Shown: positions 11,610 to 42,433 of the stretch, piece after piece
How positions within the stretch are numbered: the first letter of the stretch is position 1
Layout of the letters: the number at the start of each line of letters is the position of its first letter
NCBI GenBank assembly: GCA_036874045.1
Contig: CM072343.1
Location: forward strand, 15,830,001-15,894,000
Source: Cymodocea nodosa
Taxonomy: Eukaryota > Streptophyta > Magnoliopsida > Alismatales > Cymodoceaceae
Reading direction: 5' to 3'
DNA length: 64,000 nucleotides
Translations under genes and position numbers: made by a program
Notes under the pieces: generated by a model
What the model saw: only the letters and a program-made list of their open reading frames with translations
Databases searched by the model: none
Told to the model about the DNA's origin: nothing

Positions 11610-11740
11610 CTAATGGACAAAGCAAGAAAGACAACACGTATGTATGGAGCAATCCGAAAAGGTAGTAGAGTAATAGATGCAGGCGACATGAAAAGAATAT
11701 AAACCAACATATCACACACTAAAAGCATCAAAAGCAAGAC
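11610..11740 (-). CDS. TPC1: TPC1 exon 5 (two-pore channel: S3-S4 of voltage-sensor domain 1)
   Basis: The exon is bounded by an acceptor GCATATGCAG (before 11740) and a donor GTAAGAC (after 11610). It has 131 nt in phase 0 at its start and leaves two bases of a split Arg codon. It encodes VCDMLVYILFMSP (S3) and then LPFRIAPYIRVVFLALSI, the S4 helix of the first voltage-sensing domain. The FRIAPY.RV......SIR pattern is highly conserved in plant TPC1. TPC1 is the slow-vacuolar cation channel of the tonoplast. The downstream exons (pore 1, EF-hands, domain II) are not in the window and must lie left of base 1. No frame damage is seen. Confidence 0.9.
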
Positions 11741-12539
11741 CTGCATATGCACCAAAAAGTCAATGACTGGATGCAAATAACAATAAAATATACAAGTATT
11801 AAGCAATTTTGAACAGCATACCTAGGAAGCATGCAAGTGATGGCATGGAAATGTAACCGCATATGTAGTAAGCCAAAGTTTAAAAAATTATTTATTAGTT
11901 GCATGTCTTTTATTTCATATAAGCCTTAGATTTTTTACATTTATATTACAATTAGATGACTAAAACAAATTTGTAATAGCAAAATATTAATATTCAATTT
12001 TAGAGAATGTTACAAATTAGTTGATAATAAATATAAAAGAATGTGCAACTGAAATGATATACCACCAATGCAACTTTTTATGTTATTCATATTGATAAAA
12101 ATGATATTACAATTAAACAATCAGGACATGTAAATGAGTATAATTTTACACTTTTTGTCTTTCATAAGGAGAATACTACAATTATTGTACTACCAAAAAT
12201 TATACAAATTTAACATAAACTGCATCTCTTTGTTTTTTCCTAGAACGAAGGAGCAAAACACAAAATTAAAAAAAAAAACATAATGCAGTAGGTACAAAAA
12301 GTGTAAGACATTAGAGTAGTGATTAACAAAAAAAGGGCAAGATAAGTAGGAATCCAAACAAAAGCAAATAAGACATCATAGACAAAAGTTTAAAATTTTC
12401 AAGGTTGACTTTAGCCCTTGCCACAATTCCTGTTCATGAGCACTTTCTATATCAACACAGTCACATCATTGTACAACACATATAGTATGACTTTTCCATT
12501 CAAGGAACAACTTTGATACACAAAAAATTATATGATTTC
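11741..12539. other. TPC1 intron 4, left part: no feature seen
   Basis: AT-rich intron sequence with no recognisable element or open frame. Confidence 0.5.
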
Positions 12540-12722
12540 TTTCTATTAAGTTCAGGGGTATTATGGTCTTTTCATTTATTTCATAACTAAGTTATGTATC
12601 CTATAATACTCTTCCTAATCAATACAATCCCTAATTCTTCTTCTTCTTGACTTCTCCTTCCTCTCTCCTCCTCTCAACCAGCCACCAACCTCTTGAACAC
12701 TCACTACCGTCTGATGTTCAAC

Positions 12723-12734
12723 TTGGTATCAGAG
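12723..12734 (+). other. Primer-binding site (tRNA-iMet) of element F
   Basis: TTGGTATCAGAG is complementary to the 3' end of plant initiator tRNA-Met and is the standard copia priming site. It marks the right limit of the 5' LTR just before it. Confidence 0.75.
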
Positions 12735-13135
12735 TTCACATGTTGGGTGCCCATTCTCTTCATGCAATAATCGTCCATTCTCTTCATGCAATAATTGTCC
12801 ATTCTCTTCCCTATTGTTGTTGGCATCATTCACAATAGGCAACTAACTGTGTGCGGTAGGGTGGCTCCTCCATCAATCTGACAAACATTTGTCTATCAGC
12901 TTGTTAGCTTCTATCTACCAGGCTATTAAAATAGATGATGTCCCTTCCAATACACTATCCTGTTAAAGGTCCAAGGGTGCCCATCCTCTCTAATGGAAGT
13001 TGTTGTGAATGTAAAAAATCTAAGGCTTTGTTAACATGATGCAAGGAACTTCTTCTCCAGTAAAAGCTTTCTTTCTACATAGATTCCTTCTCTAGCCAGC
13101 AACCTAGGTATATTTTTGTTGCTCTAGCTTTTACC

Positions 13136-15452: not shown

Positions 15453-15548
15453 CTTCAGTATGTTCAAGCGATTTTTCCAGTAGTGATTGGGACCTTCATA
15501 GGACATTGGAAAGAGTGAATCAACAATAAGAATGAGTAACGTTAATCC
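15453..15548 (-). CDS. TPC1: TPC1 exon 4 (S2 and S2-S3 linker of domain I)
   Basis: A 96-nt exon of exactly 32 codons. The acceptor TTTATTGCAG precedes 15548 and a GT donor (GTTCTC) follows 15453. It encodes LTLLILIVDSLFPMSYEG, then a basic amphipathic end (YWKNRLNILK). The FP.SYEG motif and the R-L-N-.-.-K that leads into S3 are hallmarks of plant TPC1. It joins exon 3 (ends FIYE) and exon 5 (starts VLLL) with no phase change. It is too short to stand out as an open frame and was found by following the protein family. Confidence 0.9.
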
Positions 15549-16624: not shown

Positions 16625-16951
16625 TGTAATAATTAGGACTGTAGAAATAGGATTTTGGTGAGTAAAGGAAGATCAAGAAAAATGAAGTCTAAGACCAGAA
16701 CTTTGAAGAACTGCAACCTTTTCTTCTATAGATTTTAATAGGAGGATTACATGGTCTACGTGCATACCCAAGACATTATATAGCCTCTTACAATCAGTTA
16801 TAACCAATTAAGCTCACTCATCACACGTTCAGGATGTGTGTTACATGCAGATTCAGACCAAGTCAATAACTGAAAATTGACATAACAACAACAAAAGAAA
16901 AAAACACAATCTCTTAAAACATAATTTTGCACATACATAATTTAAACGTAG
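16625..16951 (-). repeat. 3' LTR of element D, first segment
   Basis: It is homologous to 25704-26030 with scattered differences and small indels. It is cut at CGTAG (16947-16951), the B1 target site. It resumes at 21975 after the second copy of CGTAG. Confidence 0.9.
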
Positions 16952-17182
16952 TGTTGTACAAGAGAGAAGCGATAAAAACCAAACACACAAAGCCAAAATT
17001 TACGTGGTTCCCCAACTTGGGTACATCTACGGATGAAGAGGGATTTGGTTTTCTATTCAAATGGAGTACAAAAGAATTAGCAACACAATGGGTGCCCTAG
17101 GTCCATGCTTAAATAGCATAGACAATACAATTGGTCAAATGACCAAAATACCTTTATACTAATTTAAGTCATATATTCAACA
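16952..17182 (-). repeat. 3' LTR of B1
   Basis: 231 bp, TGTTGTACAAG to ATTCAACA. By eye it differs from the 5' LTR by about 18 substitutions, nearly all transitions, and one 7-bp indel. A following ATCTCCACCTTGACTT is the complement of the polypurine tract. Confidence 0.95.
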
Positions 17183-17251
17183 ATCTCCACCTTGACTTGA
17201 ATTATAACTCCACCTTGAGCAAAGCTCTCCATCACAATGACCCAAGAAGGG

Positions 17252-18262
17252 TCAGCTGCATCCATATATATTGAGCAAGTCAAGACAATGCTTGAACTTA
17301 CTCTCAATCACCCCTTTCGTGAACATATCAGCTGGATTGTCTTTTGTGTTGATCTTCAAAATCTTTATTCTGTCTTCACTTCTAAAAAAGTGATATCTGA
17401 CATCAATGTGTTTAATATGGTCATGAAGCACATTGTTCTTTGCTAAACAAATGGCACTGAAACTATCACAAAAGATATCAACCCTGTCAACTTGTAATCC
17501 AAAATCTCCAAGTAGTCCTTTTAGCCAGATTCCTTCCTTTGCAGCTTCAGTCATTGCCATGTACTCAGCCTCGGTAGTGGAGAGCGAAATCGTAGGCTGA
17601 AGTGTAGATTGCCAACTGACAACTGAACCTACCACTGTAAAAACATATCCTGTTAAAGATCTTCTCTGATCAGCATTTTCAGCAAAGTCTGAATCTGAAT
17701 ATCCTGCCATATTGCAACTTTGTTTGACATCATATATCAGTCCAACATCTGGAGTTCCTTTCAAGTATCTGAAAATCCTCTTTACAGCCTGCCAATGGAT
17801 CTTCCCTGGATTTGACATAAATCTACTTACCACACTAAGAGAATAGGCCAAATCTGGGCAAGTACATACCATTGCATACATCAAGCTCCCAACAGCTTGG
17901 GAGTAAGGAACGCACTGCATGTATTCCTTTTCTGATTGTGTTTGAGGTGTCATAACTAAATATAATCGAAGATTCCTATCATAGGGTGTTCCAATGGCTT
18001 TACTAGAAACCATTCTAAATCTATTTAAGATCTTCTGTACATAGCTATGCTGATGGAGAAACAACTTTTCAGCACTTCTATCACGATGTATCACCATCCC
18101 TAGAATCTTGCCTACAGCTCTTAAGTCTTTCATTGCAAATTCAGACTTCAAAGTATTCTTCAAATCCTGTATAACATTGATATCTTTAGATGCAATTAAG
18201 ATATCATCAACATACAAGAGCAAGTATACATGTGTGTCATGATTTAAGTGTTTGATATACAC
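17252..18262 (-). pseudogene. B1 RT C-terminus and RNase H
   Basis: A 336-residue open frame carries the RT active-site box LLLYVDDILIAS near its start, then KILGMVIHRDR, the thumb (GSLMYAMVCTCPDLAYSLS), and RNase H (SDSDFAENADQRRSLTGY, STTEAEYMAM, FCDSFSAICLAKN, HIDVRYHFF, DNPADMFTK). The YVDD and RNase H acidic residues appear intact here. The inactivating lesions lie upstream. It is nearly the same as the B2 frame at 34366-35628. Confidence 0.95.
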
Positions 18263-18660
18263 ACATGAATCAGAAGTGCTGCGTAGGAAACCAACTTTGG
18301 TAATAAAATAATCAAATCTTTTATATCATTGTCTTCAAGATTGCTTGAGTCCATATAGGACTTCTTAAGCTTGCAGACCAAATCTGATCTCCCTTTCTTT
18401 GCAAAACCAATTAGTTGTTCTATCCATATTTCTTCTTCTAAATCACCATGTAGAAAGGCTGTTTTCACGTCAAGCTATTTAAGTTCTAAGTTCTTTGTTG
18501 CAACAATAGCCAAAAGAACTCTGACAGACGTGTGTCTGATGACTGGTGCAAATACTTCATTATAATCAATGCCTTTCTGTTGAGAATAGCCTTTTGCCAC
18601 CAATTTTGCCTTGAATTGTGTTCCAAGATTGTCTTGTGTTCCAACTTTTCTTTTAAACAC
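18244..18660 (-). pseudogene. B1 reverse transcriptase, front part (frameshifted)
   Basis: Two frames separated by a stop read QFKAKLVAKGYSQQKGIDYNEVFAPV, then LDVKTAFLHGDLEEEIW, then VCKLKKS. These are the copia RT fingers and palm. The stop falls where B2 has Gln (LELEQFDVK in B2, LELK then stop in B1). After CKLKKS a frameshift replaces the LYGLKQSPR motif that B2 keeps. Confidence 0.9.
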
Positions 18661-18682
18661 CTACTTGCAATCTACAACATTC

Positions 18683-19438
18683 TTATCTTTTGGGCGCTTC
18701 ACTAAATCCCATGTCTGATTTTTTTTGAAGGGACTGAAGCTCCTCTTGCATAGCTTCCATCCAATGAGCAGCATCTGAATCCTTTATAGCAGCATCATAT
18801 GTTAAAGGATCAATAGCTTCCTCCACTTCACTTGCAGCCTGCAAGGCAAAAACAATCATATTGCTAAAACCATACTTCTGCGATCGTTGAGGAACCCTTC
18901 TAGGTCTATCTCTAGCAACACATCTCTCTTGTGATTCCTCCTCAAGTTGATCTGCATTTTCATCTGAGTCCACATGTTGGTCTTTATCTGAAGCTGTTTG
19001 TTCCGGGACAATATGACGTGATAAGTCAAACTCCACCTGTTCAGGGGTGCTGGATTCTTCTGACACTATTGGTGACTCTCCATTTTGCATTAAAATAGCC
19101 TCATCAAAAGTAACATCACGACTGTGAATTACTTTTCTTGTCTTACTGTCAAAGATTCTGTACCCTTTGACTCCGATGCCATATTCAACAAAAATACCCT
19201 TTCTGGCACGTGGTTCTAGTTTGCCATTATCTACATGATAGTATGTTGTACAACCAAAAATCTTTAATTTGGAGTAATTTGCAGCCCTATTCATCCACAC
19301 TTCATAAGGTATCTTGTCACCTATACCACTGAAGGGAGATCTGTTGACAAAATAAAATGTTGTGTTCACAGCCTCAGCCCAAAATTTCTTCTCTGATCCG
19401 GCATGAAAAAGCATGCACCTTGCTTTCTCCAACAACAT
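18683..19438 (-). pseudogene. B1 integrase C-terminal part and linker to RT
   Basis: It contains LLEKARCMLFHAGSEKKFWAEAV and TTFYFVNRSPF (C-terminal part of the integrase core), IPYEVW (the GKRP-like region), LKIFGCTTYYHV, ARKGIFVEYGIGVKGYRIFD, then the acidic linker and HWMEAMQEELQSLQ at the RT entrance. All are typical copia landmarks. A stop upstream (plus 19469-19474 region) separates it from the catalytic part. Confidence 0.9.
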
Positions 19439-19615
19439 ACGGTTCAGACATTTTACTACTCCATTTTGTTATGGAGTGCCTCTAACTGTGTAGTGTCTAA
19501 TGATACCCACTTCTTTACAAAAGTTGTCAAACTCATGAAAGTAAAATTCCAAACCATTGTCAGTTCTCAAATATTTCACCTTTCTACCAACTTGATTTTC
19601 AACTTGAGTCTTCCA

Positions 19616-20191
19616 CTATTTAAAGCTCTTGAAAGTCTCACTTTTATGTTTCAAAATGAAAATACATGTCATACGTGAATAGTCATCCACTATAGAAAGG
19701 AAATATCTGGAACCTGCTAGGGAGGGTTGTTGAGAAGGTCCCCAACAATCTGCGTGGACATAATCTAATGCCCCTTGAGTGGTATGCTCTGCTGTTCCAA
19801 ACTGCACATGTTTTTGTTTTCCATAGATGCAATGTTTGCACAATTCTACATCAATGAATTTGTGCCCATTCAGTCTGCCCAAACTGCTAAGTTTCTGCAT
19901 TCCTCTCTGCCCCAAATGACCCATTCTTGAGTGCCAAATTGCAGAAATGGTTTGCTGATTACTCATAGCTGCGACAGCATCTCCTACAACTGAAGAACCT
20001 TGCAGAATATATAGAGGCCCATTTTTTACTCCTTTCATCACTACCAATGAGCCTTTTGAGACCAACAATTTGCCTCCTCCTCCTAAATACTTGAAACCCT
20101 TGGAATCAAGTGTCATCAAGGATATCAAGCTTTTGCCCAGCTTGGGCACATGCCATACATCTTCAAGGATTCTCATCGTGTCATCATGCAT
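19616..20191 (-). pseudogene. B1 protease C-terminus and integrase zinc finger/core start
   Basis: It reads VWHVPKLGKSLISLMTLDSKG (protease end) and then the HHCC zinc finger WHSRMGHLGQRGMQ...CKHCIYGK. The DDE core follows with first Asp HADCWGP and second Asp SIVDDYSRM. The frame ends shortly after KHKSETFKSFK, before the catalytic Glu. Confidence 0.9.
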
Positions 20192-20272
20192 CTTGAATCT
20201 AATTATACCAATGCCAACTCTTAGACAAACATCATCATTTGCTAATCTAACTTGTCCTCCATCAACAGTCTG

Positions 20273-21184
20273 TTAAGTATAAAAATACTCCCTATTGGGA
20301 GTCATATGATGAGATACTCTAGAGTCTAAGATCCAATGTTGATCTGTATATGCACTACAGCAAACAGTCAAAAAAAAGTCACCTTCAGACGTTGAATCTT
20401 CTTTTTCAACTACTGACACACTCCCTTTGGATTTCAATTTAGGACAATTTACCTTCCAATGTCTCTTTTCTTTGCAATAATTGCAAGTATCCTTAGAGTA
20501 CTTGCCTCTAGATTTACTCCTTCCTCTATGCCTGTTATTGCTGTTTTGTTTTTGTTGACGTCCCCTATTATATCCCTGATGTACGGACAAACCAGATGCA
20601 CTTGCATCATTGCTCCCATGTGTAACCATGTGTCTGAGTTCTCTTGAATGAAGACTGAACCTCACTTCCTCTAATGTGATAGTGTCTCTGCCAACTACGA
20701 AGGACTGCACAAAATTTTCAAATGACAGTGGAAGTGAAACTAGTAAAATGAGAGCAGCATCCTCATCTTCAACAATCACACCAATGTTTCGTAGCTCTAT
20801 AAGAATAGTGTTTAATTGATCCAAATGTTGCTTCAACGGTGTACCTTCCTTTATTTTTAAAGAGAACAACCTCTGCTTGAGCAATAATTTATTAGTAAGG
20901 GACTTTGTCATGTAGAGAGTCTCCAACTTGTTCCACAACCCAGAAGTTGTGGTCTCATCAGCAACTTCAATAATAACCTCATCTGATAGGCATAGTAAAA
21001 TAGTTGAGTGAGCCTTTTCTTCTTGTTGTTCATATTCTGCAGATTTTTTATCCATAGTCGACTCCTTGTTTAAAGGTGTCCAAATGCACTGTTGCTTCAA
21101 CAAAGCCCTTATTTTTATTTGCCAAAGGCTGAAACTATTTTTGCCATTAAACTTATCTATTTTCAAAGTCGGTGTTGACATCAC
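20273..21184 (-). pseudogene. B1 gag and start of protease
   Basis: A 303-codon open frame beginning with Met: gag core (FNGKNSFSLWQIKIRALL, TTTSGLWNKLETLYM), a basic stretch (RGRSKSRGKYS), then a CCHC zinc knuckle CNYCKEKRHWKVNC, then the protease start WILDSRVSHHMT. The DSG triplet reads DSR, so the protease active site is damaged. It ends in a stop at FYT, where B2 reads on (FYTYQTVDGG). Confidence 0.95.
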
Positions 21185-21731
21185 AAAAATGTGTAAATTC
21201 TACGCAAAAATCACTGTTTATCTTCAAAAAATAGACCAAAAAAGCCAACCTTGTGTACTGACTTGTACACACAATGTTGTTGTGCATCGGACTAAAGATA
21301 CCACTGTGGACAACGCACGATCTACAGTCTCGCGGATGGCAGGCGAGCAGACGTGCGGGTGGCAGAGGAGCAAGCAGCAGTCGCGCGGGCGCTGGCGGAG
21401 GCAGACCCAGTCGCGCGGTTGCTGGCAAAGGCAAACGCAGTCGCGCAGGTGCTGGCTTCCAAATGAACGCACGCAACAGATGCGCAGACGTACGCATGCA
21501 GGCAAACGCGCAGACGTACATGTGCAGACAATCTCGCGCGAACGGATGCTGAGTGACGAACGCGCGGATGGGTGATCTGCAGTCGAATAGGCGACTGTCG
21601 AAGATGGCATGAGCAGATGTGCATGTGTGCGAACACGCGGACGGCGGCTACTATTCTTCTAGTTGATTTTCTCCCAAAAAAAAAATAATATTTCCTTTCT
21701 CTTCCAAAGAAACCCTAGCTCTGATACCAAT
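21185..21731 (-). other. B1 untranslated leader, CpG-rich with 30-bp repeats
   Basis: The region lies between gag and the primer-binding site. Bases 21330-21600 are strikingly GC- and CpG-rich against AT-rich surroundings. They hold two clear copies, plus decayed ones, of a ~30-bp unit containing GGCAGACCCAGTCGCGCGG or GGCAAACGCAGTCGCGCAGG. In B2 the same array has at least five units. The open frames here on both strands are by-products of this composition. The right end is the primer-binding site complement (21718-21731). Confidence 0.75.
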
Positions 21732-21969
21732 TGTTGTGCAAGAAAGAAGAGAGAAGCGATAAAAACCAAACACACAAAGTCAAAATTTACGTGGTTCTCT
21801 AACTTGGGTACGTCCACGGATGGAGAGGGATTTGATTTTTTATTCAAATGGAGTACAAAAGAATCAGCAGCACAATAGGTACCCTAGGTCCATGCTTAAA
21901 TAGCATGAACAATACAATTGGTCAAATGACCAAAATACCCTTATACTAATTCAAGTCATATATTCAACA
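21732..21969 (-). repeat. 5' LTR of B1
   Basis: 238 bp, TGTTGTGCAAG to ATTCAACA. It is preceded on the plus strand by AGCTCTGATACCAAT, the complement of the tRNA-iMet primer-binding site, which touches the LTR. Confidence 0.95.
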
Positions 21970-21974
21970 CGTAG

Positions 21975-21996
21975 GACTAAAGCAATAAAGCCAACA
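21975..21996 (-). repeat. 3' LTR of element D, second segment
   Basis: GACTAAAGCAATAAAGCCAACA completes the LTR interrupted by B1. The intact partner reads the same at 26034-26055. ATCTCCTCCTTGC then follows, the complement of D's polypurine tract. Confidence 0.9.
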
Positions 21997-22060
21997 ATCT
22001 CCTCCTTGCTTTAGATACTACAAACTCCATTTTTCTCCCTTAACAGCTGAAACTTGTCCA

Positions 22061-22330
22061 CTAGAAGAGGCTTAGTGAAGAGATCTGCAAGTTGATCAAC
22101 GTTCTATAATAGGTTAACAACACTTCACCCTTGCTTTGCATCTCTCTTAAGGCATACAATTTAATATTGAAATGCTTAGTCTTCCCATAGAAGACTGGAT
22201 GACTGAAAATAGCTATGCAAGCTTGATTGTCCATAATAATATTAGTTGCAGATTCCTGAAGTAGTTGCAAATCAGAGAGGATTTTTCTTAACTAGATAGC
22301 TTGATTTGTGGCTACATTAGCTACAATTAC
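22061..22330 (-). pseudogene. Element D RNase H end
   Basis: A short open frame with MDNQACIAIFSHPVFYGKTKHFNIK, the copia DNQ..I.I..NP..H.RTKHI..K motif, ending in ...LTYYRTL, where QLADIFTK would be expected but is lost. It overlaps the end of the preceding frame, so there is a frameshift. Confidence 0.85.
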
Positions 22331-22960
22331 TTCAACTTTAACAGTAGATTGAGTCACCAAATCTTGTTTTTTGTAACTCCAAGAAAACACACTTGAACCA
22401 TATTGAAAACAATACCTAGAAGTACTCTTGAAATCCACCAGAGAGCCTCCCCACTCACTGTCAGAGAACCCTTCCAGATTTGTTGTATTTTCACATTTAA
22501 ACCTCAAACTATAATTTGCAGTATCTTTAATGTACCTTAATAGCCTCTTAGCAGCCTGCAGATGTTCCTCATAAGCACATTGCATAAACCTTGACAGGTA
22601 GGTAGCAACAAACAGAATATCCGACCTTGTAGCAGTAAGATACATCAGAGACCTCACTATACTCCTGTAAAGTCTTTCATCTACTCTTCTGGAAGTTGAA
22701 GTATTATAGAGTTTTTCTTTATGATGCATAGGAGTCTTCATTGGTTTGCATTCAAGCATGTGAAATCTATCCAATAAATCCATTGCATACTTGCATTGAT
22801 TTATTGAGATTTCAGAATCAAGTTGATGTATTTCTAGTCCCAAAAAATAGGGCATAAGGCCAAGATCAGACATATCAAAAGTTTTCATTAGATGTTGCTT
22901 TAGTTCAACTATACCTGTGATGCTACTTCCAGTAATTAAGAGATCATCCACATATAAAGA
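22292..22960 (-). pseudogene. Element D RT C-terminus and RNase H start
   Basis: A 219-codon frame beginning at the active-site box LYVDDLLITGSS (the frame enters one codon inside it). It includes PYFLGLEIHQ, KYAMDLLDRFHM, GSLMYL-like RSLMYLTATRSDI, RLLRYIKDT, and FSDSEWGGSLVDFKSTSRY of RNase H. YVDD is intact. A frameshift of a few bases just upstream breaks the link to the RT front. Confidence 0.9.
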
Positions 22961-23037
22961 AATAATTAAGAGTTAACCTTTAGAATCCTTTTTAATATAT
23001 AAAGCTACTTCAAAGAGACTTTGTGTAAAGCTCAAAT

Positions 23038-25040: not shown

Positions 25041-25049
25041 TAACAGGTG

Positions 25050-25355: not shown

Positions 25356-25381
25356 GTAATCCTATATTTCCTTGGCAGTTG

Positions 25382-28639: not shown

Positions 28640-28723
28640 CTCCCCCTCAAGCTGAATTATATATATTAGTGAGACTTAGCTTGTTACAAAAATTTTCTAA
28701 TACACCAACACTTAAACCTTTAG

Positions 28724-29920: not shown

Positions 29921-30084
29921 ATAGGAGAGAAAGTCTCACTGTAGTCTACTTCGTATTCTTGAGAGAAGCCTTAAGCAACTAATTGAGCTTTATACCTGTC
30001 TATAGTCCTATTCATCCTTCTTTTGATGGTGAAAACCCAATGACAAGAGACTATGTTCACTTGTTTAGGACATGGAACCAAATC

Positions 30085-30360: not shown

Positions 30361-30362
30361 AT

Positions 30363-31585
30363 TTTATAATTAATTAATTCTTACATATTTGTTCAACTAA
30401 AATCATTATAGTCATCAACAAATATACTAAAATCATATACTGATGATAATGATGGTTGTTTTAGCATATAAGATGTATGTTGTGTTTGTTGCATTTCATA
30501 TCATAGAACATATAAATCAAACATGTTTAAATTTTCTTCTGCATTTTCAATTGTTCCATTAAATTCCTACATTTAAACAATTTTGTATTGCAATGATTAA
30601 TTTTCTAACAACTTTTATTTTAATCTTAATATCTAAACAAGTATTTAATGTATATAAAAAATATATATTATTCCCAATACTTTAAAAAAATTTCTTTCAT
30701 TTTTAAAATTATAGGTGTAAAAATGGATAATTGCCATAATTATTAAAAATTCTTACAATATAATATAAATGGTGTATTACATCAACAAAGGTAGAATAAT
30801 ATATCCCAAATAAATATTCAATTGTATTACAAAATAGTTTTAAAAAATTAATAAAATAATTACCTATTGTAAAATCATTTTCATTTAATGATATTATACT
30901 ATCATCAATTCTACCATTGTAATAAATTTTTATAATTTCTTTACAAGGTAAACAATTATTTAACATTAAATACAAATAATTTCATCTATGAAGAATATCT
31001 ATTGTAAATGTCTTACGTGGTAAATCAAAAGAATCACATATATGATTGAATTTTTGTTGATGTCTATCACAAGTTAAAATATAAATTAATGTAGTTCTAA
31101 TATTTTCAATAAAATGTTTTATTTTTTCAATACCTATTTGAACTATAAGATTAATTATATAACATATACATCTTTGGTGAAATAAAACAAAATCATTTAG
31201 TAGAGTTAATTTATTTGTAAACATAAGAATAATTGCAATATTATTAAATACATTATCAAATGTAATACTAACTACTTTTTCTTTAATTCCATAAAATTCA
31301 AAAATTTCCATAATAGTACAAAAAATATTTTAAACATTATGTGGATGATTTATTCTTCTAAATCTTTTTTTTTTTTTTTGTAAAACTTAATTATCATTAA
31401 TAAAATATACAATAACAACAATATATTCTATTTTAATTTTACCCTTCCAAATATCAGATATAGATGCTATAAATGTATTTATAGAATTTATTATATTAAT
31501 TAGTTTCATTCTAAATTTATTAGAATTTATTAAAGATCAATAATATCTTAGCTAATTGTATTTCTAGAAACATTTTTAAACATAA
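30363..31585 (-). mobile_element. hAT transposase segment captured inside element C
   Basis: About 1.22 kb, nearly identical to 40376-41612 in the same orientation. It encodes the hAT transposase core (next entry) without hAT ends. On the right it joins element C right after the integrase words GYKYYV, and on the left just before the linker frame. No 8-bp duplication flanks it: only CAT is shared at the two junctions (ends of ...CAGACAT and start of CATAATAC). It has replaced the integrase core instead of simply landing in it. Confidence 0.85.
30709..31480 (-). pseudogene. hAT transposase core, copy in element C
   Basis: Reading upstream to downstream on the minus strand: SDIWKGK and EYIVVIVYFI (start of the RNase H-like fold), then IMEIFEFYGIKEKVVSITFDNVFNN (the second-Asp region, DNA.NN), FHQRCICYIINLIVQ (the conserved R-C-..H..NL box with His replaced by Tyr), and DLPRKTFTIDILHR next to YLMLNNCLPCKE. 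Family: plant hAT (Ac/RICESLEEPER type). Stops and the missing C-terminal dimerisation domain make it non-functional. Confidence 0.85.
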
Positions 31586-31800
31586 TACTTGTAACCTTTG
31601 ATAGAAGGAATCCGACTAGATCTTCAAACATCACAATGGACCAAGTCAAACTTATTACACGAAGAGGAAAGACGAAGACAATTAAAGGTAGCACGTGTAT
31701 GCTTACCTAATTGACAATACTCACAATCAAAAGAAGAAACAAATGCCCAAGGAAGAGCCTAGCGTAGTTTTTCAAGTGATAGATGCCCCAAATGACTATG
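31586..31800 (-). pseudogene. Element C integrase zinc finger, truncated core
   Basis: Minus-strand frames give HLGHLSLEKLR (the His pair), CEYCQLGKHTRATF (the Cys pair), then FDLVHCDV.RSSRIPSIKGYKYYV, the start of the catalytic core with its first Asp. The sequence passes into hAT DNA straight after YKYYV. Confidence 0.8.
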
Positions 31801-32049
31801 TTAGGTGAACGAAGAGCCTGCACTAGACATGCATGCGATCAATTCATGAGGAACATAATCATAGACCAGCAAATACACTCCATTGGGTTGCTTATCCCCC
31901 AAACTAATCCTCTAACCCATTTGCAAATCCTAAAAGGTATAATGAAAAAGATAGAAGGTAACTTTACAAGATAGTTGAACAGTAATGGTACTTATGGATA
32001 ATAAGTTGAAAGAGAAATCTAGAACATAAAGGACATTGTTTAGTCAAAT

Positions 32050-32560
32050 TTGAGAGGAGACTTGGATTTCTTCATGACCAGATATAGGACATGAACGACC
32101 ATCAGCAATAGTCATGGAGGATTTATTTTGCATGGACATCAACCGATCAAAAATGCTAGAAGTACTTGAGATGTGGGATGAGGTGTCGAAGTCTATTATC
32201 TAGGAATCATCATTTGAAGCAACTAAAGCATTAGAAGTACCTATACCAAGATAATAGGATGTGGCCTGCGTACTCATGGTAGTGGAACTAGCTCTATGTG
32301 ACTGAACAAGACGATTGTACTCAACCTATGAGATAGTGACAGTGAGCTCAGAAGTACCAGATGGGTCAGCCATGCCAATCCCATTAGAAGAAGATACATG
32401 TACTAGTGGGGGCTTGAGATGAGGGAACTTGTCTCAGCATTTCTCAGATTGATATCCTAACTTACCACATCATTGGCATTTAGGACATTGACGATCACCT
32501 CGTCCCCCAGAACCTTGACCACGCCCCTTGCCACCAGATGTAACAAGTGCAGTCTGATCA
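32050..32560 (-). pseudogene. Element C protease and gag zinc knuckle
   Basis: Minus-strand frames contain IIDFDTSSHIS (family IIDSGASTHIS, with active-site SG changed to FD), VLYVLDFSFNLLS, and upstream a knuckle CQWCGKLGYQSEKC after GRGQGSGGRGDRQC. The knuckle has Tyr for His, the same change as in element A. Stops interrupt. Confidence 0.75.
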
Positions 32561-32879
32561 ATAACAAGTGTGAAGAAGACAGAGTAGAAATCTGTAGAGC
32601 TTTGGCAAAAGTCTCATGGAGATTAGGCATGACATTTGCTCCTGAGATAGGACCACGAATCTGAAAGGCAACTTCAGGATTCAGACTGGCGAAATAAAAA
32701 GTGATAGTAAGTTCCTCTCAGTATCAGAGAAAAGTGGACACATCTATGGTGGGAGGCTAATATACATTAAGCTCATTTATTAGTCCTTGAAAAATACTAT
32801 AATGTTCTTTACAGGTTTGCTCCCCTTGTCAAAGATGAAACAAGTCATCATAAATCTGAAGTATTTTGGAAATATTCTT

Positions 32880-33250
32880 CTCATGGACATACATCTATCT
32901 AAGAGTAACCCACATCTCACGAGCTAGGCAGAGTATAGATACGCCCCGAGCCATGAAAGGCTTCATGCTGAATAGCATCAAGAGATGATTGCAACATCAT
33001 CAACATACCAATCTCTATAACTCAGGTTCTTGACATCCAGCGACAATGAGTGTAAATGATGTTCCTAACGGTGTCTAATGACAATGGTTTCAAAATTTTA
33101 AGCCCACAACATATACTTCGATCCATTTAGGCATTTAAAGACATCTAGAAAATGCCTAACAAGAAGCAGAATGGACTGACTTCCCTAATAATAACTAAAT
33201 TGTCCAAATGTAGCCATCTTGCTTCCACGTAGAGTAGAGGACAATGGCTA
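32880..33250 (-). pseudogene. Element C gag N-terminus
   Basis: It reads MATFGQFSYY, FLDVFKCLNGSKYMLWA.NFETIVI, HLHSLSLDVKNLSYRDWYVDDVAIIS, with stops. It matches element A's gag word by word. The start Met lies about 540 bases inside the primer-binding site. Confidence 0.8.
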
Positions 33251-33758
33251 GACAGGGAGGATAACTTTCAGATGGGACTACCTAAAGAGGAGAAGAAACT
33301 CGGACAGGACTATCTGAGAGGACCACAAGCTGGACAGCTCGAGGTTGCCAACAAGAGCAGACGGATCTACACGTGATTACTAGTCGCAACTAAATCCATC
33401 AGAAGAAGTTGCGATCCGTCGAGGATCGTGTTGACAGGAGCAAATGGAACTGTCCAATCCTATTCAGGAGATATAAAGATTCTTTGATGTCCTTTTCATA
33501 TCTCTCAAAGAATCTTGACGTACTGACAGGAGTGGATGTGACTGTCCACATGAATCCAAGTCTAGTCGAGCTACAGGAGATGGCCGAGCTACATCGACGA
33601 CCAATTTGATGCCAACCATCAGTGGCAACGTCAATGTGTGGAGGGCCTGTAGGCAGAGACAACTAGCAACTAGTAGGCGAAGACGACTAGGTGGGGAAAC
33701 ACGGGGAGAATCGATGGGCAAATGGTGAAAAAAAAAGACCCTAGCTCTAATACCAAGT
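33251..33758 (-). other. Element C leader and primer-binding site
   Basis: Untranslated leader between gag and the 5' LTR, GC-richer than its surroundings. The right end has GCTCTAATACCAAGT (33744-33758), complement of the tRNA-iMet primer-binding site with one transition. Open frames here on both strands look incidental. Confidence 0.7.
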
Positions 33759-33890
33759 TGAATGGGAGGAGAATGACCAAAAGAAAATTCACTTTTCATT
33801 GATGCAAAGTAGGTATTTATACAAGACCATAAATGGATATCCATTTATCACATAGGAATAACATAAGATAACTATTATAAGCTACTAACA
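33759..33890 (-). repeat. 5' LTR of element C
   Basis: 132 bp, TGAATGGGAGG to GCTACTAACA. It carries an extra TATCCATTTAT-type 11-bp stretch absent from the left LTR. Confidence 0.9.
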
Positions 33891-34050
33891 ACAGTCAAAT
33901 TGATCAAAGTTAATGGTCAATTGTTGACCAATGATAGCATCACTTCCTTTGGTAGTCTATAGTACGACATTTACCTATCCAAAGGCACAGATTGATACTT
34001 TCCATGTGTTGAACACTAATTCACTACTTGTATTTTGATGTTCAAGCAAA

Positions 34051-34055
34051 TGCAC
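34051..34055. other. Target-site duplication of B2, left copy
   Basis: TGCAC abuts the LTR start TGTTG. The same five bases follow the element at 39276-39280. Confidence 0.9.
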
Positions 34056-34296
34056 TGTTGTGCGAGAGAAAAGAGAGAAGCGATAAAAAAAACCAAACAC
34101 ACAAAGCCAAAATTTACATGGTTCCCCAACTTGGGTACATCCACAAATAGAGAGGGATTTGGTTTTCTATTTAAATGGAGTACAAAAAAATCAGCAGCAT
34201 CATGGGTGCCCTAGGTCCATGCTTAAATAGTATGGACAATACAATTGGTCAAATAACCAAAATACTCTTACACTAATTCAAATCATATATTCAACA
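34056..34296 (-). repeat. 3' LTR of B2
   Basis: TGTTGTGCGAG to ATTCAACA, 241 bp. Its sequence is close to both B1 LTRs. Confidence 0.97.
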
Positions 34297-34365
34297 ATCT
34301 CCACCTTAACTTGAATTATAACTCCACCTTGAGCAAAGCTCTCCATCACAATGACCCACGAAGGG

Positions 34366-35628
34366 TTAGCAGCATCCATATATGTTGAGTAAGTAAAGAC
34401 AATGCTTGAACTTACTCTCAATCACCTCTTTCGTGAACATATCAGCTGGATTGTCTTTTGTGTTGATCTTCAAAATCTTTATTCTGTCTTCACTTCTAAA
34501 AAAGTGATATCTGACATCAATGTGTTTAATACGGTCATGAAGCACATTGTCCTTTGCTAAACAAATGGCACTGAAACTATCACAAAAGATATCAACCCTG
34601 TCAACTTGTAATCCAAAATCTCCAAGTAGTCCTTTTAGCCAGATTCCTTCCTTTGCAGCTTCAGTCATTGCCATGTACTCAGCCTCGGTAGTGGAGAGCG
34701 AAATCGTAGGCTGAAGTGTAGATTGCCAACTGACAACTGAACCTACCACTGTAAAAACATATCCTGTTAAAGATCTTCTCTGATCAGCATTTTCAGCAAA
34801 GTCTGAATCTGAATATCCTGCCATATTGCAACTTTGTTTGACACCATATATCAGTCCTACATCTGCAGTTCCTTTCAAGTATCTGAAAATCCTCTTTACA
34901 GCCTGCCAATGGATCTTCCCTGGATTTAACATAAATCTACTTACCACACTAAAAGGATAGGCCAAATCTGGGCAAGTACATACCATTGCATACATCAAAC
35001 TCCCAACAGCCTGGGAGTAAGGAACGCGCTGCATGTATTCATTTTTTGATTGTATTTGAGGTATCATAGTTGAAGATAATCGGAGATTCCTATCATAGGG
35101 TGTTCCAATGGCTTTATTAGAAACCATTCCAAATCTATTCAAGATCTTCTGTACATAGCTGTGCTGATGGAGAAACAGCTTTCCAGCACTTCTATCACGA
35201 TGTATCTCCATCCCTAGAATCTTGCCTACAACTCCTAAGTCTTTCATTGCAAATTCAAACTTCAAGGTATTCTTCAAATCCTGTATAACATTGATATCTT
35301 CGGATACAATTAAGATATCATCAACATACAAGAGCAAGTATACATGTGTGTCATGATTTAAGTGTTTGATATACACACATGAGTCAAAAGAACTGCGTAG
35401 GAAACCAACTTTGATAATAAAAAAATCAAACTTTTTATACCATTGTCTTGGAGATTGCTTGAGTCCATACAAGGACTTCTTAAGCTTGCAGACCAAATCT
35501 AATCTCCCTTTCTTTGCAAAACCAATTGGCTTTTCCATCCACATTTCTTCTTCTAAATCACCATGCAGAAAGGTTGTTTTCACGTCAAATTGTTCAAGTT
35601 CTAAGTTCTTTGTTGCAACAATAGCCAA
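34366..35628 (-). pseudogene. B2 reverse transcriptase and RNase H, long open frame
   Basis: 420 codons without a stop: LEQFDVKTTFLHGDLEEEMW, CKLKKSLYGLKQSPRQWYKKF, LLLYVDDILIVSED, KILGMEIHRDR, GSLMYAMVCTCPDLAYP, SDSDFAENADQRRSLTGY, STTEAEYMAM, FCDSFSAICLAKD, DNPADMFTK. YVDD and the RNase H motifs are intact, so this is the best preserved pol segment of the window. A stop upstream (near 35690) separates it from the RT entrance. Confidence 0.95.
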
Positions 35629-37068
35629 AAGAACTCTGATAGACGTCTGTCTGACGACTAACGCAAATACTTCATTGTAATCAATGCCTTCCTATTGAGA
35701 ATAGCCTTTTGTCACTAATCTTGCCTTGAATTGTGTTCCAAGATTGCCTTGTGTTCCAACTTTTCTTTTAAACACCCACTTGCAATCTACAACATTCTTA
35801 TCTTTTAGGCGCTTCACTAAATCCCATGTCTGATTTTTCTAAAGGGACTGAAGCTCCTCTTACATAGTTTTCATCCAATGAGCAGCATCTGAATCCTTCA
35901 TAGCAGCATCATATGTTGGAGGATCAATAGCTTCATCCACCTTACTTGCAACCTGCAAGGCAAAAGCAATCATATTGCTAAAATCATACTTCTACGATCA
36001 TTGAGGAACCCTTCTAGGTCTGTCTCTAGCAACACATCTCTCTTGTGATTCCTCCTCAGGTTGATCTACATTTTCATCTGTGTCCAAATGCTGGTCCTTA
36101 TCTGAAGCTGTTTGTTCCGGGACATTCTATTGTGACAAGTCAAACCCTACCTGCTCAGGAGTGTTGGATTCTTCTGACACTATTGGCAACTCTCCATCTT
36201 GCATCAAAATGGCCTCATAAAAAGTAACATCACGACTGTGAATTACTTTTCTTGTCTCGCTGTCAAAGATTCTGTACCTTTTGACTCCAATGCCATATCC
36301 AACAAAAATGCCCTTTCTGGCACGTGGTTTTAACTTGCCATTATCTACATAATAGTATGTTGTACAACCAAAAATCTTTAATTTGAAGTAATTTGCAGCC
36401 CTATTCATTCACACTTCATAAGGTATCTTGTCATCTATACCACTGAAGGGAGATTTGTTGACAAGATAAGATGTTGTGTTCACAGCCTCAACCTAAACTT
36501 TCTTCTCTAAACCGGCATGAGAAAGCATACACCTTGCTTTCTCCAACAACGTATGGTTCAGACATTCTGCAACTTCATTTTGTTGTGGAGTGTCTCTAAC
36601 TGTGTAGTGTCTAGTGATACCAACTTCCTTACAAAAGTTGTCAAACTCATGAGAGCAAAATTCTAAATCATTGTCAGTTCTCAAATATTTCACCTTTCTA
36701 CCAACTTGGTTTTCAACTTGAGTCTTCCACTACTTAAAGCTCTTAAAAGCCTCACTTTTATGCTTCAAAATGAAAACTCATGTCATACGTGAATAGTCAT
36801 CCACTATAGAAAGGAAATATCTGGAACCTACTAGGGAGGGTTGTTGAGAAAGTCCCCAACAATCTACGTGGACATAATCTAATTCTCCTTGAGTGGTATG
36901 CTCTGCTGTTCCAAACTACACATGTTTTTGCTTTCCATAGATGCAATGTTTGCACAATTCTACATCAATGAATTTGTACCCATTCAGTCTGCCCAAACTA
37001 CTGAATTTCTGCATTCCTCTCTGCCCCAGATGACTCATTCTTGAGTGCCAAATTGCAGAAGTGGTTTG
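35629..37068 (-). pseudogene. B2 RT entrance, linker and integrase, several stops
   Basis: Frames at 36127-36408 (LKIFGCTTYYYV, ARKGIFVGYGIGVKRYRIFD) and 36493-36693 (KYLRTDNDLEFCSHEFDNFCKEVGITRHYTV, then PQQNEVAECLNHTLLEKARCML). The latter is the end of the integrase catalytic core. The catalytic Glu region reads NEVAECLN (family NGVAER.N). At 36740-37030 the second Asp region and the zinc finger are visible but broken. Confidence 0.85.
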
Positions 37069-37938
37069 CTAATCATTCATAGTTGTAGCAGCATCTCCTA
37101 CAATTGGAGAACCTTGCAGAATGTATAGAGACCCATTTTTTACTCCTTTCATCACTATCAATGAGCCTTTTGGGACCAACAGTTTGCCTCCTCCTCTTGA
37201 ATACTTGAAACCCTTGGAATCAAGTGTCATCAAGGATATCAAGCTTTTGCCCAGCTTGGGTACATGCCATACATCTTCAAGGATTCTCACCGTGCCATCA
37301 TACATCTTAAATCTAATTATACCAATGTCAACTCTTAGACAAACATCATCATTTGCTAATCTAACTTGTCCTCCATCAACAGTCTGATAAGTATAAAAAT
37401 ACTCTCTATTGGAAATCATATGATGAGATACTCCAGAGTCTGAGATCCAATGCTGATCTGTATATGCACTACAACAAACAGTCAAAGAAAAATCACCTTC
37501 AGACGTTGAATCTTCTTTTTTAGCTACTGACGCACTCCCTTTGGATTTCAATTTGGGACAATTTACTTTCCAGTGTCCATTTTCTTTGCAATAGTTGCAA
37601 ATATCTTTAGAGTACTTGCCTCTTGATTTACTCATTCCTCTATGTCTGTTATTGTTGTTTTGTTTCTGTTGACGTCCCTTACTATCTCCTTGATGTACAG
37701 TCAAATCATATGCACTTGCATCATTACTCCCATGTGTAACCATGTGCCTAAGTTCTCTTGAATGAAGACTGGACATCACTTCCTCCAATGTGATAGTGTC
37801 TCTGCCAACTACAAAGGACTGCACAAAATTTTCAAATGATAGTGGAAATGAAACTAGTAAAATCAGAGCAACATCCTCATCTACAATAGTCACACTAATG
37901 TTGTGTAACTCTATAAGAATAGTGTTTAACTGATCCAA
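37069..37938 (-). pseudogene. B2 gag C-terminal half and protease
   Basis: It starts right after a stop at 37939-37941. It contains the gag tail, the CCHC knuckle CNYCKENGHWKVNC (intact) and the protease start WISDSGVSHHMISN. It continues through VWHVPKLGKSLISLMTL to the protease end. The active-site triplet DSG is kept here, unlike in B1. The frame runs on into the integrase N-terminus. Confidence 0.95.
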
Positions 37939-37941
37939 ATG

Positions 37942-38298
37942 TTACTTCAACGGTGTACCTTCCTTCATTTTTAAAAAGAACAACCTCTGCTTAAGCAATA
38001 ATTTATTAGTAAGGGATTTTGTCATGTACAGGATCTCCAACTTGTTCCATAACCCAGAAGTTGTGGTCTCATCAGCAACTTCAATAATAACCTCATCTAA
38101 TAGGCATAGTAAAATAGTGGAGTGAGCCTTTTCTTCTTGTTGTTCATATTCTACAGATTTTTTATCCATAGTCGACTCCTTATTTAAAGGTGTCCAAATG
38201 CCCTGTTGTTTCAACAAAGCTCTCATTTTTATTTGCCAAAGACTGAAACTATTTTTGCCATTAAACTTTTCCACTTTCAAAGCCAGTGTTGACATCAC
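37942..38298 (-). pseudogene. B2 gag N-terminal half
   Basis: The frame begins with Met in the same context as B1 (FNGKNSFSLWQIKMRALLKQQ). It ends at a stop in EGTPLK-stop-HLDQLNT where B1 has Gln, so one C-to-T change (CAA to TAA) splits an otherwise whole gag. Confidence 0.95.
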
Positions 38299-39034
38299 AA
38301 AAATGTGTAAATTCTATGCAAAAATCATTGTTTATCTTCAAAAAACAGACCGAAAGAGCCAACCTTGTGTACTGACTTGTACGCACAGTGTTGTTGTGCG
38401 TCGGACTGAAGATACCACTGTGGGCAATCCACGAAGAGGGCAAACGCACAGTCGGCAGTCTCACGAATGGCAGGCAAGCAAGGCGAGCAGGCGTGTAAAC
38501 AACGGTCGAGCAGGCGAGTAGTCGCGCAAACGGTAGGCGAGCAGACGTGCAAGCGGCAAGGGAGCAAGCAGCAGTCGCACGGGTGCAGGCGGAGGCAGTC
38601 GCGCAGGCATAGGCAGAGGCAGACACAGTCGTGCAGGTGTTGGCTGAGGCAGACGCAATCACGTAGGCGTTGGTAGAGGCAGACGCAGTCACGCAGGCGT
38701 AGGTGGAGGCAGACGCAGTCGCGCAGACGCAAGCGGAGGCAGACGCAGTTGCGTAGACATAGGCTTCCGGACGAACGCGCGGAGACAGATGCGCGAACGT
38801 ACGCGTGCAAGCAAACGCATAGACGTACATGCACAGACAATCTCGCGCGGACTGATGTTGAGTGACAAACGCGTGGACGGACGGTCTGCAGTCAAACGAG
38901 CGACTGTCAAAGATGGCGTGAGCAGATGCACGTGTGTGCGAACACGCGAACAACAGCTGTTGTTCTTTCGACTGATTTTCTCCCAAAAACAATCTTTTTT
39001 TTCTCTTCCAAAGAAACCTCGCTCTGATACCAAT
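38299..39034 (-). other. B2 leader with CpG-rich 30-bp tandem repeats, and primer-binding site
   Basis: Within 38400-38960 a 30-bp unit of the form AGGCAGACGCAGTCGCGCAGG followed by a variable CGTAGGCGG-like end is repeated at least five times in register between about 38605 and 38765, with decayed copies on both sides. The stretch is full of CG dinucleotides, in sharp contrast to its surroundings. The right end is CGCTCTGATACCAAT (39020-39034), the primer-binding site complement. Confidence 0.8.
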
Positions 39035-39275
39035 TGTTGTGTGAGAGAAAAGAGAGAAGCGATAAAAAGAACCAAACACACAAAGCCAAAATTTACGTGG
39101 TTCCCCAACTTGGGTACGTCCACGAATGGAGAGAGATTTGGTTTTCTATTCAAATGAAGTACAAAAGAATCAGCAGTACCATGGGTGCCCTAGGTCCATA
39201 CTTAAATAGCATGGACAATACAATTGGTCAAATGACCAAAATACCCTTACACTAATTCAAGTCATATATTCAACA
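39035..39275 (-). repeat. 5' LTR of B2
   Basis: TGTTGTGTGAG to ATTCAACA, 241 bp, followed by TGCAC. Confidence 0.97.
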
Positions 39276-40224
39276 TGCACAAATCAATATATTTTTAGGA
39301 TTGTTCAACACTTCTAAGACATTTCTACAACCTTCCGAAATTAATTTCTCCTTATCAGATATCATTTTAGACAAACAGATCAGACCAAAATAATTAAAAA
39401 GACACTCAAAACAAACCCTGAAATTTTCATTTTTTATCATTTTCTCTCCTCACCATGTTAGCATGACATGTGGCACATTACACCAACCACCTCTTGACAT
39501 GTGGTAGCCTCTGATTGATTGGTCAAAAGACTTCATCTAATGAGTCAATGGGAGATTGACATGTGGCACCCTACTTTCTCTCTCCTTTATGTCAATTTTG
39601 TGAACCAACCAGAATAGGACAAATGGTAGCATAGTTAGGACTTCTTCCTTCTCTCCTTATTAGAATGGACAACTAAGATTCATCCACATGGCTTTTGTTC
39701 GACGACTGAGATCTAACCTTCGTTTGATGACCTAAATTTAATTAGAAATGTAAGTGGGCTAAACTAGCCAAACCTAGCTTATAAAATAAAGGCTCATACA
39801 AGTTGTAGGCCAAGCCAGGCTAGCTTGCAAAAGTTAAAAATTTTGTAGAGTTGGCTTGGCCTAGCCTACAAGTTAGTAAGCCAATTTTTTTAATTTTATT
39901 TAATATTTTATATATATTTTTAATAAATATATTAAATTAAATCTAAATATTATTAAATCACAACATTTGAATATATCAACACAAAAGAAATAAATTATTT
40001 CATTTATAAATACATCAATACATTAACATCAAGTTATCATTCATCACCATATTCAAACATAAGTCAAAAAGTTAAAATAAATTATTTTATTTACAATTAA
40101 AATTAAAATTACATTATAAGTTGTTATGACATAAATATTATAACAAATATTTCTACATTTGATTTATATAATTACATTGAAATATTCAAATTTTTAAATT
40201 CATCTGTAAAATCATTTTGCTATT

Positions 40225-41660
40225 GTTATCTATAATTGCGAGCAATTTTTTAGTCTTTAACATACATTAAAACTTCTATAATATCATTTTTTAACTTTAC
40301 TCTTTTATTATCTAATATATTACCACTAATACTAAATAATTGTTCTAGAAAATTAAGATTTTCTCTCATTAAATAGTTATAATTAATTAATTCTTGCCTA
40401 TTTGTTCAACTAAAATCATTATAGTCATCAACAAATATACTAAAATCATTATAGTCATCAACAAATATACTAAAATCATAAATTGATGATAATGATGGTT
40501 GTTTTAGCATATAAGATGTATGTTGCATTTATTGCATTTCATATCATAAAACATATAAATCAAACATGTTTAAATTTTCTTCTACATTTTCAATTGTTCC
40601 ATTAAATTCCTACATTTAAACAATTTTGTATTGCAATGATTAATTTTCTAACAACTTTTATTTTAATCTTAATATCTAAACAAGTATTTAATGTATATAA
40701 AAAATATATATTATTCCCAATACTTTAAAAAAATTTCTTTCATTTTTAAAATTATAGGTGTAAAAATGGATAATTGCCATAATTATTAAAAATTCTTACA
40801 ATATAATATAAATGGTGTATTACATCAACAAAGGTAGAATAATATATCCCAAATAAATATTCAGTTGTATTACAAAATAGTTTTAAAAAATTAATAAAAT
40901 AATTACCTATTGTAAAATCATTTTCATTTAATGATATTATACTATCATCAATTCTACCATTGTAATAAATTTTTATAATTTCTTTACAAGGTAAACAATT
41001 ATTTAACATTAAATACAAATAATTTCATCTATGAAGAATATCTATTGTAAATGTCTTACGTGGTAAATCAAAAGAATCACATATATGATTGAATTTTTGT
41101 TGATGTCTATCACAAGTTAAAATATAAATTAATGTAGTTCTAATATTTTCAATAAAATGTTTTATTTTTTCAATACCTATTTGAACTATAAGATTAATTA
41201 TATAACATATACATCTTTGGTGAAATAAAACAAAATCATTTAGTAGAGTTAATTTATTTGTAAACATAAGAATAATTGCAATATTATTAAATACATTATC
41301 AAATGTAATACTAACTACTTTTTCTTTAATTCCATAAAATTCAAAAATTTCCATAATAGTACAAAAAATATTTTAAACATTATGTGGATGATTTATTCTT
41401 CTAAATCTTATTAATTTTTTTTGTAAAACTTAATTATCATTAATAAAATATACAATAACAACAATATATTCTATTTTAATTTTACCCTTCCAAATATCAG
41501 ATATAGATGCTATAAATGTATTTATAGAATTTATTATATTAATTAGTTTCATTCTAAATTTATTATAAAGATCAATAATATCTTGGCTAATTATATTTCT
41601 AAAAACATTTTTAAATTGTGGACAATAAGCTTATAAAATGTAATCTTAAAAATATTAACT
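40225..41660 (-). pseudogene. hAT transposase with C-terminal dimerisation domain
   Basis: It has the same core motifs as the copy in element C: ISDIWKGK, VVSITFDNVFNN, FHQRCICYIINL, RKTFTIDILHR then YLMLNNCLPCKE. Beyond the shared segment it continues at 40225-40372 with FLEQLFSISGNILDNK and VKLKNDIIEVLMYVKD, the hAT dimerisation domain (S..FS..G.IL...R..L....VE.L...KD). The protein is broken by several stops, and the BED-finger end is not recognisable. Confidence 0.85.
40410..40469. repeat. 30-bp tandem duplication specific to this hAT copy
   Basis: CTAAAATCATTATAGTCATC plus ten more bases occurs twice in direct succession. The copy in element C has it once. The duplication therefore arose after the two copies separated, or was lost from the other. 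Confidence 0.8.
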
Positions 41661-41830
41661 ATCACCAAAATTAATAAATAAATTTTAAATATTCTCTAAC
41701 ATTTCTAACATCATTGTAATATTACTTTCAAAGTTGAAATTAATTTATTTTTAAATCATTTTACTTTTTCAAAATTTTTATATAAATAATTAGTTAAATA
41801 TCTAAATAAATGATTTATCTAGAACTCTCT

Positions 41831-42244
41831 GGTCAAGCTAACTAGCCTTGCCTCTCTTTCTCTTTTTCAAGACATAGAAGTCATTTGCGTGTAACATATT
41901 ATATTGTACCATATGATTTTTTTAGGTTACCATTCTAATAGACAAGATAACAATTCCTTTTTCCTCGAGACGTGGAAAATCTTCTCACTCCCTTACGTTC
42001 TCAAGTCTTACAATGTTGACCGGTTTAATCTGATATTCAACAATCGATGGTATTCCCTCTACCTAGAATCATTAAAAACATTAAGGATAGAAGGAACAAC
42101 AGCATCAACTCTTTGACTCTATTTTCCCTCTACGCTGAATCATCTAGGGCCAGAACGTCAGAATAGATCGCAAGGAAACCAAAGAAATCCATCCGTTGCA
42201 TTTCTACGGACAAAGCAAGCACCAACGTAAGAAAATCCACTCAC
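41831..42244 (-). other. TPC1 intron 1, right edge including donor site
   Basis: From the donor GTGAGTGG after exon 1 (42244) leftwards. No element is recognised here. Confidence 0.6.
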
Positions 42245-42433
42245 CAAATCGACAAGTGCTGCAGCGCGCTGGTAAGACGACCCGGAGTTGATGGCATTCG
42301 ACCTGCTCTTGCGGTCGTAGAACACAAACCAGAGACGTCCATCGTCGACTCTACCACCATCCCCGTCGCTGCCACCACTACTACTCCGATCGATTACGCC
42401 GTGGGATTCATCGGTGATGAGTGGCTCCTCCAT
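42245..42433 (-). CDS. TPC1: TPC1 exon 1 (vacuolar two-pore cation channel, N-terminus)
   Basis: The first coding exon has 63 codons and ends at the donor GTGAGTGG in phase 0. Plant TPC1 is the Ca-regulated, voltage-gated slow-vacuolar channel of the tonoplast. The exon begins MEEPLI and ends SSYQRAAALVDL, matching the family's MEDPLI...FQKAAALVDL, and the next exon opens AEDGIGLP as expected. E-E-P-L-I fits the acidic dileucine-type vacuolar sorting signal known at this position. An in-frame ATG at 42448 (MSYGE) is five codons upstream. I chose 42433 by family alignment. The middle (Ser/Gly/Asp-rich, then RLWFVFYDRKSR) is variable in the family. The exon is GC-rich, unlike its introns. Confidence 0.93.

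Follow-up and report, generated by a model that had tools for sequence, protein, structure and literature searches.

The first coding exons of a plant TPC1 channel gene lie scattered over more than 30 kb of DNA in Cymodocea nodosa, and the questions raised by such a locus are whether the gene is whole, what has lengthened it, and whether its product could still serve as a channel. The stretch analysed (the window) is 64,000 nucleotides long and covers positions 15,830,001 to 15,894,000 of contig CM072343.1, called C15 below, with window position 1 at C15:15830001; the genome comprises 374.6 Mb in 28 contigs. The window contains the 5′ part of a 23-exon gene for TPC1, the slow vacuolar (SV) channel, that is complete, and this gene (copy A) is probably a retained but altered paralogue standing beside a second one (copy B). 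The gene structure and the tandem duplication are near certain. Copy A looks retained rather than dying, and this is the weaker step of the explanation.

The gene and its tandem copy

The gene lies on the minus strand, which places its later exons at lower coordinates, to the left of the window. The initial annotation had read five exons here, of 63, 48, 35 and 32 codons and then 43 codons plus two bases, and these stand as placed and in frame; the four internal junctions and the exon 5 donor agree with the GT-AG rule, and the lengths given for introns 1 to 3 were likewise borne out. In the order of transcription, with window coordinates unless C15 is named, the features are as follows.

42434..44387, minus strand: stretch upstream of the start codon, pieces of which match the region before copy B at 71-77% identity; probably the promoter region, within the duplicated unit
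42245..42433, minus strand: TPC1 copy A exon 1, 63 codons, donor gtgagt; alternative in-frame ATG at 42448
27916..42244, minus strand: intron 1, 14,329 bp, with Copia-type pieces
27772..27915, minus strand: copy A exon 2, 48 codons
27572..27771, minus strand: intron 2, 200 bp
27467..27571, minus strand: copy A exon 3, 35 codons
15549..27466, minus strand: intron 3, 11,918 bp
16625..26056, minus strand: insertion within intron 3, 9,432 bp, Copia-type with a second element nested in it
15453..15548, minus strand: copy A exon 4, 32 codons
11741..15452, minus strand: intron 4, 3,712 bp
11610..11740, minus strand: copy A exon 5, 43 codons and 2 bases
1..11609, minus strand: first half of intron 5, which totals 22,999 bp and continues to C15:15818611
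3431-3575 and 8208-8351: repeat pair enclosing a Copia element in intron 5
C15:15818610-15714849: copy A exons 6-23, left of the window

Exons were sought by tblastn in 264 kb of contiguous sequence that includes the window and is free of N. The probe was an Arabidopsis TPC1 (AtTPC1) sequence that is identical to PDB 5e1j at 732 of 733 residues, and short exons and junctions were fixed by eye and by script. The five exons matched in order, exons 2 to 5 with E-values of 5e-13, 7e-11, 1.5e-6 and 8e-8, exon 1 by itself giving a weak match of 0.019. The annotation had pointed leftward for the rest of the gene, and there the remaining 18 exons were found on the minus strand, in order and in frame. 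The full model holds 755 codons in 157,585 bp from ATG to stop (C15:15714849-15872433), and the span of more than 30 kb first proposed thus proves to be a lower limit. Introns 1-11 measure 14329, 200, 11918, 3712, 22999, 197, 748, 157, 447, 37652 and 16791 bp, and introns 12-22 measure 154, 1289, 9714, 183, 2184, 18808, 162, 915, 1770, 10899 and 89 bp; the eight introns longer than 9 kb make up 91% of the span. All 22 are GT-AG, and copy A is free of stops, frameshifts and damaged splice dinucleotides. The product finds its best PDB match in AtTPC1 (5e1j, E = 5e-303), and this collinear match over residues 40-751 takes in two six-helix repeats and two pore loops, which upholds the identification as a plant TPC1.

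Both ends of the model needed attention. The start codon may lie at 42433 or at an ATG 15 nt above it (42448); both are in frame, and the same five additional codons occur in copy B. A 22-exon model was rejected, as it ended out of frame with the C-terminal exon missing, and an R-rich exon sought in copy B intron 21 yielded no good candidate. The gap was solved by a further exon of 35 nt, conserved in both copies and with good splice sites, whereupon both frames close.

Copy B lies 55,957 bp downstream of copy A on the same strand (C15:15536007-15658891) and has 23 exons and 760 codons in 122,885 bp, with Ion_trans matches at C15:15613512 and 15560550. Intron positions are identical in the two copies and exons 2-23 are of equal length; exon 1 is the most divergent and is five codons longer in copy B, which is likewise GT-AG at all 22 introns and free of stops. 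Its introns 1-11 measure 3597, 124, 2469, 9928, 27329, 177, 745, 157, 394, 19222 and 9882 bp, and introns 12-22 measure 154, 1224, 18614, 185, 2176, 17185, 161, 939, 1765, 4086 and 89 bp. Homology between the copies begins about 2 kb before the start codon and ends about 130 bp beyond the stop. A genome-wide search with AtTPC1 placed 26 of 26 matches within copies A and B, although it overlooked several short exons of both, so that small fragments elsewhere could escape it. The initial annotation had named, as one outcome that would refute it, a second intact TPC1 locus with this one lacking its downstream exons, a dead partial copy. Such a second locus does exist, but a dead partial copy is rejected because every downstream exon of copy A is present.

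Could the pair simply be two haplotypes laid in a row by the assembly? Duplicated stretches do occur in it, since contig C6 holds two glucan-synthase loci that score identically and are spaced by exactly 73,050 bp. Against this, the short introns of the two TPC1 genes are 5.6% divergent (458 of 8,181 sites, with 62 insertions or deletions, across the 13 of 22 introns that are short and fully read in both), synonymous divergence (dS) is 0.066, and many insertions are copy-specific. Their homology also ends sharply after the stop codon, and alleles so different with such limits would be unusual. The joined 264-kb stretch contains no N, and an artefact is very improbable.

The greater divergence of exon 1 and the upstream stretch was a first hint of gene conversion between the copies, for which no claim is made: mismatch is mostly 0.03-0.12 in collinear blocks, with no clear boundary. 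A bacterial promoter scan of the upstream stretch was uninformative in a plant. Between the copies, on the plus strand at C15:15673288-15676269, lie open frames that by eye resemble a Gypsy-type pol.

What fills the introns

Eight of nine intronic open frames from the window match Copia-type gag, integrase-side or reverse-transcriptase families in Pfam, and the ninth matches nothing. Used as separate probes, these eight confirmed pieces match copy A introns 1, 3, 5, 10, 11, 17 and 21, on both strands, and none was matched in intron 14. The proposal that retrotransposons occupy the large introns therefore stands for seven of the eight introns longer than 9 kb. In each of them the protein-like matches cover 1.1-5.8 kb, a minor share of the whole; intron 3 is the only one seen to be filled by a retrotransposon, and for the others this would be presumed.

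Intron 3 of copy A is that of copy B with 9,432 bp added; the added stretch has the ends TG...CA and a 5-bp target-site duplication (TAATC). The site is empty in copy B, and the element inserted after the copies parted. Intron 10 has about 26 kb in copy A opposite about 0.55 kb in copy B. A small Copia piece in copy A intron 21 (C15:15723890-15724267) overlaps a block common to copy B, so that part of the intron growth would be older than the duplication, and this suggests that some lengthening preceded it.

A 241-bp long terminal repeat (LTR) from intron 1 has at least 40 scored genome copies among 619 candidates. Also in intron 1, an AT-rich repeat pair at 30396-31580 and 40439-41615 differs at 14 of 1,177 sites and is much younger than the neighbouring Copia LTRs; its reading as the LTRs of one element was dropped, as the pair crosses another. 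One end of the intron 1 Copia holds three overlapping simple-repetitive open frames (38261-39153), and similar frames occur in intron 10 (C15:15800399-15800969). An old Copia common to intron 5 of both copies was also considered and dropped, because the matching blocks flank the copy A element and element-to-element matches are at 64-68%; no clean target-site duplication was seen for the intron 5 element.

How unusual is such a gene? The Arabidopsis TPC1 gene occupies a few kb. As controls from this genome, the spans of 11 myosin motor domains (about 680 aa) run from 3.5 to 19.0 kb with a median of 8.2 kb, and those of 11 glucan-synthase domains (about 820 aa) from 2.3 to 44.7 kb with a median of 12.9 kb; the control loci were grouped by us from matches, and the spans are lower limits based on matched exons. 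TPC1 is thus an outlier in size, but on a continuum. Among the glucan-synthase loci, the C6 pair (C6:15889007-15901915 and 15962057-15974965) has further copies adjacent and stems either from a tandem duplication that happened very recently or from a repeat in the assembly.

Papers on grapevine (PMC3058033) and Chloranthus (PMC8626473) describe large introns built of repeats, with Copia prominent; in Chloranthus, 876 of 2,184 orthologues exceed 20 kb, compared with 2 in rice and 0 in Arabidopsis (PMC8626473). The large introns of copy A resemble these in holding Copia and probably in being built of repeats, and differ in belonging to a single, tandem-duplicated 158-kb gene; the genome has 375 Mb, and most genes sampled from it span 3-45 kb. 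Among the literature titles listed for TPC1 with long introns and transposable elements or with tandem duplication, none dealt with such a gene, which does not prove its absence. Genes of this sort have precedents; what is unusual is the scale and the pairing.

Channel residues of the two copies

The tandem copy and the substitutions in the pore and Ca2+ sites of the window copy were not foreseen by the initial annotation. Residues are numbered here as in Arabidopsis, and the copy A and Arabidopsis rows can also be compared in the HMMER alignment. Over exons 2-21, 408 of 654 aligned residues are identical to AtTPC1 in copy A and 428 of 654 in copy B. Copy A alone carries D240G, T264K, W505C, R531H, R550C and E637Q, among others, together with an altered C-terminal RRR; T264 is what we take to be a filter I residue. 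Copy B keeps T264, E637, D240 and R531, has D607G alone, and shares E456Q, E457N and D606N with copy A. The voltage-sensing IIS4 residues R537, R540 and R543 are kept in both copies, as are D454, E528 and N631, all in likeness to AtTPC1. So too is the EF-hand 2 stretch ELDDSGDFK, with D376, D377 and D380. Both copies differ from AtTPC1 in the three shared substitutions and in a degenerate EF-hand 1 loop (DKSKRGFLYKNQ) that lacks most of its acidic residues.

Across filters I and II and the D269/E637 Ca2+ site, copy B holds the expected residues, and copy A departs at T264K and E637Q while keeping D269, G630 and N631. According to PMC8508871, D269 and E637 form a luminal Ca2+ coordination site beside the filter that is conserved in plant TPC1s. 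T264 may be likened, by resemblance, to Thr271-Ala272 of human TPC2, and according to PMC6424560 it is backbone carbonyls that filter I presents to the ion path; for that reason, the lysine side chain of T264K need not close the pore. Of the luminal Ca2+ sites, namely D240/D454/E528, E239/D240/E457 and E605/D606/D607, copy A is changed by D240G, E457N and D606N and copy B by E457N, D606N and D607G, the other residues being kept. D240 belongs to two of these sites (PMC10665017). The same source describes Vicia faba TPC1 as a natural hyperexcitable variant, which shares E457N and D606N with both copies; its E605A is paired with D606N for the effect, whereas both copies here keep E605, and copy B has D607G instead. 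As for the sensor, R531 is named R1 in PMC13095418, with gating dependent on R537, R540 and R543, and its standing as the R1 equivalent is disputed between that source and PMC5065317.

One might suppose that copy A is an ordinary working TPC1 in which these substitutions are tolerated. Its frame is open, and it keeps R537, R540, R543, N631, D269, D454, E528 and D376. That reading is nonetheless quite unlikely: T264K introduces a lysine into filter I, and with E637Q one of the two pore residues of the Ca2+ site (PMC8508871) is lost; copy B retains T264 and E637. These changes lower the likelihood that copy A conducts like TPC1 and not that it descends from one.

The fate of copy A

Between the copies, exons 2-23 (692 codons) have a nonsynonymous divergence (dN) of 0.044 beside the dS given above, and dN/dS is 0.66 with a bootstrap range of 0.44-1.04; their 2,076 bp contain no insertion or deletion. 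At the 65 residue differences in these exons, Arabidopsis agrees with copy B 29 times, with copy A 7 times and with neither 29 times (p = 3e-4). At 427 sites where Arabidopsis and a rice sequence agree, copy A alone departs 24 times and copy B alone 5 times. Copy A is, by these comparisons, the divergent copy.

A dying paralogue, freed after the duplication and gathering harmful substitutions while by luck escaping a stop, frameshift or splice loss, would explain this excess, the fall of changes on T264, E637, D240, W505, R550 and the C-terminal RRR, and a dN/dS range extending to 1. A lineage free since the duplication would however be expected to suffer 6.6 frameshifts, 2.1 stops and 2.5 splice hits, or 11.2 disabling changes in all, if rates are equal on both lineages and short introns are neutral. 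Copy A has none, its splice dinucleotides being whole at 22 of 22 introns, and the probability of zero is 1.4e-5. To account for the residue changes, copy A must have lacked constraint during a fraction of about 0.38-1.0 of the period since the duplication, and under such partial freedom the probability of an undamaged copy ranges from 1.4e-5 to 0.014. A dying copy is on this evidence rather unlikely.

A retained but altered paralogue thus remains the probable reading, and its history may be pictured as follows. A tandem duplication would have copied a unit whose limits lie about 2 kb before the ATG and about 130 bp after the stop codon, at a time when many introns had already lengthened; each copy would then have acquired further elements of its own. 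The introns would be removed through ordinary splicing. The SV-channel function most likely rests with copy B, which keeps the canonical residues, and its luminal Ca2+ inhibition may be weak. Copy A, open and spliceable, has altered pore, luminal Ca2+-site and S4 residues, and on account of these changes would most likely be a paralogue that has been retained but conducts less well or in a changed manner.

Several points weigh against this account. The dN/dS range reaches 1.04, so that by dN/dS alone full relaxation is compatible, and if all unpolarised changes are given to copy B, the probability of an intact copy A under partial relaxation rises to 0.003-0.014. That introns were long before the duplication is judged from their present length and from a small number of blocks common to both copies, the long introns of copy B having been read in part. 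The outer LTRs of the intron 3 element differ by 8.6% (22 of 28 changes being transitions), compared with 6.5-7.2% between the copies in its flanks, and this divergence, taken alone, gives no sign of a later insertion. Finally, glucan-synthase genes reach 44.7 kb, and long introns are therefore not peculiar to TPC1 here.

Another conceivable outcome is neofunctionalisation, in which copy A would be an intact, expressed subunit whose T264K and E637Q make a poor or non-conducting pore, acting in dimers with copy B as a brake on, or a selectivity switch for, the excitability of the vacuole; as read from these residues, it is doubtful. In other voltage sensors, a histidine at R1 gives a proton leak, and R531H might add such a leak through the sensor. 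If neofunctionalisation were true, this would be a dominant-negative TPC1 evolved by a plant via tandem duplication of a gene of the 100-kb class.

As a caution, an annotation that masks repeats may break such a gene. What the locus offers is a natural pair of adjacent giant genes for one channel, their length nearly all intron, that differ at residues named by structure papers for conduction and luminal Ca2+ sensing. If copy A is expressed, the pair would provide a test, within one plant, of how a duplicated vacuolar channel diverges and of whether, in a TPC1 dimer, the partner subunit can tune the channel.

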